Counted from the first letter of the stretch, positions 45,676 to 48,838 are shown. The stretch: 64,000 nucleotides of DNA from Natrinema longum (GCF_017352095.1 NZ_CP071463.1:3224001-3288000); one strand, 5' to 3'. Translations and numbers: made by a program. The notes: generated by a model not told the origin, from the sequence alone.

Positions 45676-45748
45676 GTCCGGGTTGGGGTAGTGGTTATCC
45701 TTCAGCCTTGTGGAGGCTGAGACGCGGGTTCGATTCTCGCACCCGGAC
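45676..45748 (+). tRNA. tRNA-His (GTG)
   Basis: The gene folds as a cloverleaf: an eight-pair acceptor stem that includes the encoded G-1 opposite C73 (a tRNA-His hallmark), a D arm GGGTAGTGGTTATCC, an anticodon stem CAGCC/GGCTG with loop TTGTGGA (anticodon GTG), and T arm CGGGTTCGATTCTCG. CCA is not encoded. A TATA-like GTATTTTAG lies about 35 bp upstream and a T-run follows. Partial copies of its 3' end occur downstream. Confidence 0.95.
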
Positions 45749-45787
45749 TTTTTCACGGCGTCGTCGCGAACGAAGTGAGCGACGGCT

Positions 45788-45808
45788 CGGAGCGGCTTTG
45801 CCGCTCCG
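45788..45808. repeat. 9-bp perfect hairpin downstream of tRNA-His
   Basis: CGGAGCGGC and GCCGCTCCG pair perfectly around TTT. It lies between the tRNA and the first tRNA-end copy. It may be a processing or termination structure or part of a vanished element. Confidence 0.5.
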
Positions 45809-45876
45809 GTGACCATCGGGAGGAGCTGAAAAGCCGGAACGCGAGATCGAACCAGGGAGTGAAGCGAACGACCGGG

Positions 45877-45897
45877 GTTCGATTCTCGTACTCGGAC
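45877..45897 (+). repeat. tRNA-His 3'-end copy 1 (att-like)
   Basis: This 21-nt segment repeats the tRNA-His 3' end (45728-45748) with two differences, in the same direction and 149 bp downstream; the similarity continues one or two bases on either side. Such partial tRNA copies are left when integrative elements use the tRNA as attachment site. Confidence 0.55.
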
Positions 45898-46089
45898 TGT
45901 TCGTGAACCGCGCTCGAAGGGACCGAGGCTGACACCGCCGGAAAGTGAGGAGTGTCCGAGCGAAGACGACGGTGGTAACGGTGCTGGACGTTCTTCCACA
46001 GGTAACGAAACAGCCGCGAAGACAGTTTAGCGACGCTCACAACGCGGGTTTGGCGAGAGAGTTAACAGTGTCGCGTCCCTAGCGATAGC

Positions 46090-47886
46090 GTGAACGAAAC
46101 ACCCCCAACAGACGCAGGTACGCGGGCCGATACGGTCGATTACGAGACCGTGGACCGGCGCGTGCTCGTCATCGGCGCGGGTGCCGCGGGAGCACGGACC
46201 GCGATCGAACTGGTCGAACGCGGCGTCGACCCGGCGGACGTACTCGTCGTCGGGAAGCGCGCCCACGGCGACGCCCACACGACGTGGGCCCGCGGGGGCA
46301 TCAATGGGGCGCTCGGGACCCTCGACCCGGAGGACGACTGGACGATCCACGCCGCCGACACGCTGACCGAGGGCCACTCCCTCAACGACCCGGGGAAGGT
46401 CGAGACGGTCACCCGCCGGATGCCGGGCATCCTCCGCGAACTCGAGGACTGGGGCATGGAGTTCAGCCGCACCGAAAGCGGCGACATCGACCAGCGCTAC
46501 TTCGGCGCACAGTCGTTCCGCCGGACGGCGTTCGCCGGCGACTACACCGGAGAGGCGCTCCTCGACGCGCTGGTCGACCGTGCACAGGCGCTCTCGATCC
46601 CCTACCGCGAGAACGTCTTCGTCTCCCGGATACTCGCCGACGACGGCCGCGTGCTCGGGGCAGTCGGGACGGATCTCGACACTGGGGAGTTCGTCGTCTT
46701 CGACGCCGAGGTGGTGGTTCTGGCCGCGGGCGGGTACACCGGGCTCTACCGCCGCCACTCCTCGCGCGACGACGAGAACACCGCCGACGGGCCCGCACTC
46801 GCCTATCAGGCGGGTGCGACGCTGATGGACATGGAGTTCGTCCAGTTTCACCCCACGGGCATGGTCGGCAAGCGCTACGGGGAGTCGTGGGACGGTCGGC
46901 TCGTAACCGAGGCCGTTCGCGGGGAGGGCGGTCGACTGTACAACGCCGAGGGGGAACGGTTCATGGAACGGTACTCGCCGGACCAGATGGAACTCGACGC
47001 CAGGGACGTCGTCGCCCGCGCCATCGCGAAGGAGATCGCCGACGGCCGCGGCACGGACTCCGGCGGCGTCTATCTCGATATCTCCCACCGGGGTCGCGAC
47101 TTCATCGAAACGAGGCTCCCGCGGATGTACGAGCGGTTCGCCGAGTTGGGCGTCGACATGGCCGAGGAGCCCGTCGAGGTCGCGCCGACGGCCCACTACG
47201 GAATGGGTGGGGTTCGTGTCGACGACGAGGGCGAGACCGATGTCGACGGGCTGTACGCCATCGGCGAGACGATGGCGGGCGTCCACGGTGCGAACCGACT
47301 CGGGGGAAACTCGCTCGCAGAGACGGTCGCGTACGGCGCGGTCACTGGCGAAGCCGTCGCCGACCGGCTCGCCGAACGCGAGGTGCACGGAGCCGACGAA
47401 CTCGGCGAGCACGCCGCGGTCCACCTCCACGACCTCGCCGACCTCGCGAACAGCGACGGGACGTACGACCCGGCTGCGGTGTTCGACGACCTCCGGTCGT
47501 TGCTCTGGGACCACACGGGCATCCTGCGCGATGCTGACGGCCTCGAGAACGGAGTGGCCGGCCTCGAGGAACTCCGTGAGCGGGCTTCCGATCTCGCGGT
47601 CGGGGACAGGACGAGCGCGTCCTACGAGTTCGCGCTCGACCTCGGGTTCGCCCTGCTCACCGCGGACGCCGTACTCCGCAGTGCGCGGGAGCGAACGGAG
47701 TCACGCGGCGCACACTTCCGCACCGATTTCCCGGACGCGACACCCGAATGGCGACGCAACGTGGTGGTTCGCTCGGACAGCGTCGGTACGATGGACCTCT
47801 CGACTAGCCCCGTCGGTACGCCGAGCGATGCGGTACAGGCGGCCCTCGATAGGGGGTACGAACTCGATTACCACCAGCTCGAATGA
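46090..47886 (+). CDS. FAD-binding succinate dehydrogenase/fumarate reductase/L-aspartate oxidase family protein
   Basis: A 598-residue flavoprotein with a GTG start. The FAD motif is VLVIGAGAAGARTAIELVERG near residue 26; the substrate region has TTWARGGINGALG, LMDMEFVQFHPTGMVG and APTAHYGMGGVRVDDEGETDVDGLYAIGE; the FAD-closing GANRLGGNSLAETVAYG follows. A C-terminal helical domain is present. No Fe-S or membrane subunit is adjacent and no nadA/nadC, so whether it is a quinol:fumarate type or an aspartate oxidase is open. It lies between two tRNA-end copies. Confidence 0.88.
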   Translation: MNETPPTDAGTRADTVDYETVDRRVLVIGAGAAGARTAIELVERGVDPADVLVVGKRAHGDAHTTWARGGINGALGTLDPEDDWTIHAADTLTEGHSLNDPGKVETVTRRMPGILRELEDWGMEFSRTESGDIDQRYFGAQSFRRTAFAGDYTGEALLDALVDRAQALSIPYRENVFVSRILADDGRVLGAVGTDLDTGEFVVFDAEVVVLAAGGYTGLYRRHSSRDDENTADGPALAYQAGATLMDMEFVQFHPTGMVGKRYGESWDGRLVTEAVRGEGGRLYNAEGERFMERYSPDQMELDARDVVARAIAKEIADGRGTDSGGVYLDISHRGRDFIETRLPRMYERFAELGVDMAEEPVEVAPTAHYGMGGVRVDDEGETDVDGLYAIGETMAGVHGANRLGGNSLAETVAYGAVTGEAVADRLAEREVHGADELGEHAAVHLHDLADLANSDGTYDPAAVFDDLRSLLWDHTGILRDADGLENGVAGLEELRERASDLAVGDRTSASYEFALDLGFALLTADAVLRSARERTESRGAHFRTDFPDATPEWRRNVVVRSDSVGTMDLSTSPVGTPSDAVQAALDRGYELDYHQLE

Positions 47887-47976
47887 GCGGGGTCTCTGCG
47901 GAGCGGTCGCTCGCTCGAGGAGAACGCGTCCCCGCGATCGGCCGATTCTGACCGCCGTCGCACGATGTCGTTGGCG

Positions 47977-48711
47977 CTACAGCGTGATCTCTTCTCCATC
48001 GTCGGGGACGTGGACGTTTTCAGTCTCCGAGCGCACTTGCTCGCGTGTGAGCAAACAGTGGTTGATCGCCTCCATGTGAACGACGACGACCGTCGCATCG
48101 GTGGCCTCACGGACGGCGGAGACGTCCGCGACGCCCATCGTGATCGGCTCGCCGTGATCGAACTGTGCTTCACCGCCGTTGAGAACGACCATGTCGGGTT
48201 CGAACCGCTCGAGCGTCCGTTCGACTTGCTCGTACCAGACCGTGTCGCCGGCAAGGTACAGCGTCTCGTCGGCTTCGAGAACGAACCCCGAGACGGGCCC
48301 CATCTCCTCGGCTAACTCGCCGTGCCCGTGGCGAGCGGGCGTCCGGGAGATGGTGACGCCGCCGAAGGATACCGAATCGTCGACGGGCCGTACGTCGGTG
48401 AAGCCCTCGTCGACGAACGCATCCGCCTCGACGGGCTGACAGAACAGTGGAACGTCCGCGTCGAGTTCCGCTTTCGCCGCGTCGTCGAAGTGGTCGGGAT
48501 GACGGTGGGTGACGATCACGGCGTCGTACGACAGATCGATATCGGGCATCGGTACGAGGGGATTCCTGCGGTCGTTCGGCGTATCCCGTATCGACGGGTT
48601 CTCTCCGGGAGACGCAAACAGCGGATCGACGAGAAGCGTCGTCTCTCCGATGGTCACGAGGAGCGTCGCGTTGCGGACGAGAGAGACGCTGGTATCGAGA
48701 GTCGGTGACAT
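47977..48711 (-). CDS. MBL-fold metallo-hydrolase (UlaG-like)
   Basis: A 244-residue metallo-beta-lactamase-fold protein. The metal motif is IVTHRHPDHFDDA, followed by the His in PARHGHGE, the Asp in YLAGDTVWYE and the last His in VVVHMEAINHC. It resembles UlaG-type lactonases and phosphodiesterases, with unknown substrate. The ATG at 48711 was chosen over one 24 codons upstream that runs into the att-like region. It converges with the flavoprotein gene. Confidence 0.88.
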   Translation of the reverse strand: MSPTLDTSVSLVRNATLLVTIGETTLLVDPLFASPGENPSIRDTPNDRRNPLVPMPDIDLSYDAVIVTHRHPDHFDDAAKAELDADVPLFCQPVEADAFVDEGFTDVRPVDDSVSFGGVTISRTPARHGHGELAEEMGPVSGFVLEADETLYLAGDTVWYEQVERTLERFEPDMVVLNGGEAQFDHGEPITMGVADVSAVREATDATVVVVHMEAINHCLLTREQVRSETENVHVPDDGEEITL

Positions 48712-48817
48712 ACGACAGCCCCTTCGGCGAGCGTCGGGTTGTGGGTTGCGGTGAGTCGACCGGGATGGACGTGCTGTCTGCACTCGAGGTCGTCGCGGCC
48801 GAAGCGAGTAGGACCCC

Positions 48818-48838
48818 GTTCGATTCTCGAACCCGGAC
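48818..48838 (+). repeat. tRNA-His 3'-end copy 2 (att-like)
   Basis: This 21-nt segment matches the tRNA-His 3' end (45728-45748) with one mismatch, in the same direction, 3.1 kb downstream. No cloverleaf can be formed with the sequence before it. It lies in the divergent spacer between the MBL gene and the gene at 48953. Confidence 0.6.

Follow-up and report, generated by a model that had tools for sequence, protein, structure and literature searches.

The 3' ends of tRNA genes are classic landing sites for mobile DNA, and short tRNA fragments found near them are routinely taken for integration scars or mis-annotated as tRNAs. The closest known case to the repeats described here is the tyrT/tyrV locus of Escherichia coli (rttR, tpr), where the 3' end of the tRNA is repeated downstream of the gene in direct orientation with a regular period of 178, and each spacer holds an inverted copy. 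In the E. coli genome (NC_000913.3) the 19-nt copies behind tyrV lie at +159, +337 and +515, with the spacer holding its inverted copy at +59; the repeated block covers the terminal 19 nt, CCA included. Elements carrying an integrase also leave a direct tRNA 3' repeat, the attR, downstream of an intact tRNA; GI3 of Haloquadratum, inserted in tRNA-His, has a repeat of 43 nt, and a 22-nt duplication of tRNA-Ala is accompanied by an adjacent integrase (PMC3119063). The SMRs and PATEs of Haloquadratum are gene-free, palindromic sequences of ~100 bp which are precisely present or absent, the SMRs having inverted terminal repeats and no target duplication (PMC3119063). Casposons, which insert beside a leader-like sequence, duplicate 14-15 bp of the target at a tRNA 3' end and possess terminal inverted repeats (PMC6614799).

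The genome of Natrinema longum (G000) is a single contig of 3.59 Mb, of which positions 3224001-3288000 form the window, the 64,000-nucleotide stretch that was analysed. Gene content, with a DUF5814 gene as neighbour, shows it to be haloarchaeal. Its intact tRNA-His gene (GTG anticodon; mature span from G-1 to C73, 45676-45748) is followed by two direct copies of its 3' end, the 22-mer GGTTCGATTCTCGCACCCGGAC (Table 1). Counted over the last 21 bases these recur, as originally predicted, in the same orientation at 45877-45897 with two differences and at 48818-48838 with one. A genome-wide search allowing ≤3 mismatches returned four sites, namely tRNA-His itself, both of its copies and one pseudogene resembling tRNA-His (G000:C1:2032372-2032450, minus strand, corresponding to L002 1501-1579, with the 22-mer match at G000:C1:2032376), while the reversed pattern gave none in the whole genome. 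Since three of the sites fall inside 3.1 kb and the reversed control is empty, the repeats are not due to chance, an origin also ruled out by the controls with non-cognate tRNAs given below.

Table 1. Features of the tRNA-His locus and of integrase elements in tRNA genes; positions are those of the window unless a genome and contig are named.
Feature	Position	Strand	Basis
tRNA-His (GTG anticodon), intact	45676-45749	+	ARAGORN; Rfam tRNA, 53 bits
tRNA-His 3' block duplicated downstream, 22-mer, G53 (T-loop start) to discriminator C73	45727-45748	+	sequence, genome-wide search
L part, T-rich stretch and hairpins	45749-45840	+	sequence; equivalent module in relatives
Inverted T-loop core, partial inverted copy of tRNA 3' end	45841-45853	-	
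R module, type B, shortened	45854-45875	+	relatives; precise alignment with G010
Proximal direct copy of tRNA-His 3' end, 2 mismatches in 22 nt	45876-45897	+	genome-wide search
Flavoprotein, TfrA/SdhA/NadB superfamily (FAD_binding_2, Succ_DH_flav_C)	46090-47886	+	Pfam, NCBIfam
MBL-fold hydrolase	47977-48711	-	Pfam, NCBIfam
Degenerate R module preceding distal copy	48790-48816	+	alignment with G002, G010, G018, G019
Distal direct copy of tRNA-His 3' end, 2 mismatches in 22 nt, 1 in 21	48817-48838	+	genome-wide search, congener alignment
Element of ~71 kb in tRNA-His, integrase-like gene adjoining tRNA	G016:C6:28395-99968		loci L066, L092, L264, L265
Element of 13.3 kb in tRNA-Thr, integrase match adjoining tRNA, ~55-nt distal repeat	G000:C1:2113589-2126968		
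Element of 6 kb in tRNA-Gly, integrase match adjoining tRNA, ~43-nt distal repeat	G000:C1:885583-891677		

The 127 bp that separate tRNA-His from the first copy are gene-free, and the whole proximal unit (45749-45897) contains no gene. Reading away from tRNA-His, the unit consists of hairpin L, an inverted tRNA 3' core, hairpin R and the direct copy. The L part forms the hairpins GTCGTCGC-GAACGAAGTGA-GCGACGGC and GGAGCGGC-TTT-GCCGCTCC. The inverted core, GCGAGATCGAACC, is an inverted partner of the first copy absent from the earlier reading of this locus; with its acceptor part the imperfect inverted tRNA 3' end extends over 45831-45853 (AAGCCGGAACGCGAGATCGAACC). A cmscan search of the locus spanning the unit (L001) against Rfam matched the tRNA alone and no other family. 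A second genome of the same species (G010) differs from the window at tRNA-His by exactly one additional unit of 102 bp, which on the evidence of two genomes could equally have been gained in one or lost from the other.

For each of the 45 tRNAs of the genome, the 500 bp downstream were searched for a second occurrence of its own 3' 22-mer (≤2 mismatches). Such a copy was found behind 15 of them, by comparison with none of 1,866 non-cognate combinations of tRNA and copy in the same test, and no tRNA was preceded by a copy of its own 3' end apart from one tandem tRNA pair. The borders of the duplicated block are sharp, starting at G53 and ending at N73 in 14 units of this genome, and at the other tRNAs, too, the insert has two hairpins with an inverted T-loop core between them. 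The unit is an insert of 75-140 bp, most inserts measuring 76-140 bp, followed by a direct copy of 21-22 nt of the 3' block of the preceding tRNA. An element specific to tRNA-His is ruled out, as other tRNAs have units of their own. Four further loci of this genome (L131, L132, L142, L194) possess an L hairpin with no surviving direct copy, some of them with an inverted core and R hairpin as well, which suggests that the 15 of 45 counted here are a minimum. The hairpin centre GCGARCNAAGYGAGC was considered as a motif restricted to tRNAs; it is suggestive at best, since only five of its 12 sites lie behind tRNAs and the reversed control yields five sites.

The original prediction interpreted the copies as nested integration scars. 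In a generalised form of this account, successive elements with tyrosine integrases of the T-loop type would have entered each tRNA and lost their bodies, their attR ends staying behind. Direct repeats of a tRNA 3' end are indeed the normal product of integration, and the Haloquadratum tRNA-Ala case (PMC3119063) means that a T-loop integrase scar is possible in principle. Integrase elements do occur in these genomes (Table 1). They measure 3-71 kb, reside in tRNA-Gly, tRNA-Thr or tRNA-His, in most cases have the integrase adjoining the tRNA, and carry repeats of 43-55 nt which begin at or before the anticodon loop; the units, in contrast, are gene-free, ~0.1 kb in length and bounded by 21-22 nt. 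The distal repeat of the large G016 element is 47 nt long, from the anticodon loop, and a 3.1-kb remnant in the tRNA-His of G017 has the same type of repeat. Near the attR of both these tRNA-His elements there is also an inverted tRNA 3' end, a point in favour of scars. The old downstream flank sits beyond attR, as a whole unit in G016 and as an L hairpin only at the tRNA-Gly of our genome. The integrase elements are a layer separate from the units.

The integrase which a scar would lead one to expect is missing from the interval, where Pfam and NCBIfam searches reveal the flavoprotein and the MBL hydrolase only and no integrase gene or remnant; the genome has nine integrase matches, all of them outside the window and the nearest ~180 kb off. 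Together with the repeat lengths, the narrow range of insert lengths, the constant architecture at 15 different tRNAs and the presence of shared R modules at different tRNAs tell against successive integrations, and we consider these an unlikely source of the copies. What stands of the prediction is that direct repeats of a tRNA end are present here and that they are related to recombination; the proximal 127-bp segment is no scar of an element specific to tRNA-His, its architecture being found behind a third of the tRNAs. The idea that units are att sites of known phages or plasmids was also rejected: none matched the phage and plasmid collections, and the tRNA-His 3' 20-mer had no match in IMG/VR.

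R modules are common to different tRNAs within the genome, and to tRNA-His and other tRNAs. Two tRNAs of our genome share 85% identity over 60 nt, and 44 nt are shared between the tRNA at 205891 of our genome and the tRNA-His of G027. As a rule the similarity begins at the inverted core and continues up to the border of the direct copy, or ends a few nucleotides short of it. Since the R modules are shared while the copies stay cognate, the flanking repeat comes from the target tRNA and not from the module. The inverted core matches its own tRNA only slightly better than it matches others.

Errors of replication or repair might produce a similar picture. Palindromes behind tRNAs could make the polymerase switch templates at the T-loop core, so that the tRNA 3' end is copied again, and hairpin modules could be swapped between tRNA loci via microhomology or gene conversion, with no mobile element involved. 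Such a process would fit arrays in which direct and inverted T-loop cores alternate around hairpins, junctions at the core common to all tRNAs, and the exchange of R modules between loci whose ends remain cognate; searches for an enzyme, a mobile intermediate or a free form of the units found none, which agrees with it too. The duplicated block, however, always ends at N73, as expected of insertion guided by the tRNA rather than of random switching, and the insert lengths are narrowly distributed. Template switching is, beside the integration scars, a main rival of the explanation preferred below, and like them we consider it unlikely.

The stems of the inserts contain 82 GU and 79 AC mispairs and therefore show no bias towards one RNA strand, a looser first version of the test being likewise flat. 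This argues for palindromes at the level of DNA rather than RNA made from one strand, and an RNA-level element was rejected on the same grounds. It also bears on whether the units are functional trailers, transcribed with the tRNA and acting in 3' processing, in termination or as a small RNA. The precedent is E. coli tyrV, with its equivalent plan and annotated small RNA, rttR, for which such a role behind tRNA-Tyr has been proposed. No strand-specific selection on RNA is visible, 30 of the 45 tRNAs have no unit, units differ between close relatives and no Rfam family matches the unit; a trailer function is, in our estimation, very improbable.

The explanation which we prefer, tentatively and at close to an even chance, is that the copies are the ends of tRNA-anchored palindromic units, added by recombination at the T-loop/3' block of the tRNA with a cognate repeat left behind. 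The recombination process would recognise this conserved block and place the unit directly behind the tRNA. Insertion would keep the tRNA intact and furnish a second copy of its own 3' end at the far side, giving cognate repeats at every tRNA. New units would enter beside the tRNA and displace older ones outward, where these would decay. Where arrays allow first and second copies to be compared, the first has fewer mismatches in ten, more in three and an equal number in seven; the polarity is modest. Units may be lost through recombination between the direct repeats, and genes may end up between two repeats; in the window the distal repeat, ending at 48838, would close an older gene-bearing segment (MBL, then flavoprotein). 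In favour of this explanation are the cognate copies in two genomes, the sharp block, the copies that track variant tRNA-His ends, the shared R modules, the DNA-level palindromes, the single-unit difference of G010, the better-preserved first copies and the old flanks beyond attR. Against it are the searches that gave no enzyme, mobile intermediate or phage or plasmid match, the inserts' lack of terminal inverted repeats, the only slight preference of the inverted core for its own tRNA, the equal chance that the G010 difference is a loss, and the modest polarity.

A more far-reaching form of this proposal is that haloarchaea possess an insertion system which uses tRNA genes as leaders. Palindromic units of ~100 bp, and sometimes genes, would be added in a polar manner directly behind the tRNA, each addition duplicating that tRNA's own block from T-loop to N73, and the resulting tRNA-anchored arrays would follow a logic analogous to that of CRISPR and integron arrays. 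We regard such a system as possible, if on the unlikely side. The likeness to integron cassette arrays is in manner of working only, and lies in short palindromic repeats resembling recombination sites, suggested polar growth and genes located between repeats. The units differ from integrons in that the anchor is a tRNA gene, and that neither an IntI nor an attC consensus was found.

The two genes of the interval were correctly named in the original prediction, and the comparison across strains which it proposed shows that the content downstream of tRNA-His does vary. The flavoprotein is present at this tRNA-His in two of the 29 congeners only, our genome and G010 (97% identical), and each of these has a single strong match (E < 1e-100). 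A genus search placed a homologue of 63-65% elsewhere in the genome of 20 other congeners; most congeners have just one such homologue. This distribution suggests that in the two N. longum genomes an acquired flavoprotein gene has replaced the native one. The MBL gene is found at this tRNA-His in five of the 29 (our genome, G010, G002, G018 and G019), and three more congeners have homologues (71-80%) elsewhere. The idea that MBL genes adjoin other tRNAs elsewhere in the genus was rejected, since in G016, G022 and G026 the 1.5 kb around these genes contain no tRNA.

All five genomes can be aligned from the MBL gene as far as the conserved gene that follows it, and the distal copy co-occurs with the MBL gene. 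In G002 the inverted core, R module and copy are all kept at the distal end, whereas in the other four 42 nt including the inverted core are absent; G010, G018 and G019 have a degenerate copy. The five-genome alignment, the missing 42 nt and the degenerate copies indicate that the distal copy is old and decaying. Judged from the sequence comparison, it is an end which travels with the MBL gene and closes the gene-bearing segment, and no fresh scar.

Within the genus, the 3' end of tRNA-His recurs (≤4 mismatches) less than 400 bp from the gene in 23 of 29 genomes, and three genomes have two or three consecutive units there. L and R modules, the latter of several types, are freely combined. Copies were found at 27 of 44 sampled tRNA-His loci of Natrialbaceae and at eight of 20 sampled from other haloarchaeal families, and where the end of tRNA-His is variant the copies track it (L174, L187, L216, L222, L224). 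The original prediction took conservation of the arrangement, with all three copies, across distant genera as counting against scars; such conservation is seen for the proximal copy, but does not extend to the set of three. In a genome of another family the cognate 22-nt test was positive for four of 30 tRNAs (non-cognate, 0/802) and a 14-nt version for nine of 30 (non-cognate, 0/828).

As in loci of the RtT/tyrT type, in the haloarchaeal units the 3' end of the tRNA recurs periodically in direct orientation, and the spacer contains it in inverted form. The period is about 100-160 and the sequence differs from that of E. coli tyrT/tyrV; unlike the latter, the units occupy 15 tRNA loci with shared modules. 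They resemble SMRs and PATEs in size, palindromic nature, lack of genes and precise presence or absence. In their borders they differ from SMRs (PMC3119063), being enclosed by tRNA-cognate direct repeats. Terminal inverted repeats were sought at the insert ends, where the mean number of matches was 5.33 of 12, against 5.42 for shuffled sequences, and none of 84 inserts had ≥9; transposon-like (SMR- or MITE-like) inserts were accordingly rejected. In the same respect they differ from casposons (PMC6614799), whose target duplication is also shorter than the 21-22 bp found here.

No description of tandem cognate tRNA-end units in haloarchaea was found in the open-access literature searched. E. 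coli tyrT provides a precedent for the general plan; its occurrence at many haloarchaeal tRNAs, where modules are shared and ends are cognate, is undescribed within that literature. Since in one genome a third of the tRNAs have cognate palindromic units behind them, and such units occur order-wide, many such tRNA fragments have an origin other than integration. The units provide many natural replicates for studying the origin of tRNA 3'-end repeats, the question posed by E. coli tyrT, and if driven by an enzyme they would represent a new kind of site-specific array growth.

A second style of unit was seen in G155 (L286, L295, L297, L298, L299), in which the last 14 nt of the tRNA alone are repeated, at +51 to +59. 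In at least some of these loci an inverted acceptor sequence lies ahead of the copy (e.g. CTCCCTTCGGTCGTGCACCGGCC).

The pseudogene of our genome noted above and its relatives (L068-L091, L093-L099) are full-length tRNA-His-like genes. They lack a proper anticodon loop (5-6 nt) and have a bulged T stem, with an intact acceptor stem and a shared upstream CGTGGTAGC motif. In the genus they occupy mostly two sites, between bcp/hsp20 and pheA in 14 genomes and between tfb and nadE in 15, and they possibly specify a conserved, non-decoding tRNA-like RNA. Behind the bcp-pheA gene of G027 (L081 2469) there is likewise a palindromic unit, in which the tRNA-His 3' end is copied over 22 nt, so that the process which generates units acts on this pseudo-tRNA as well.
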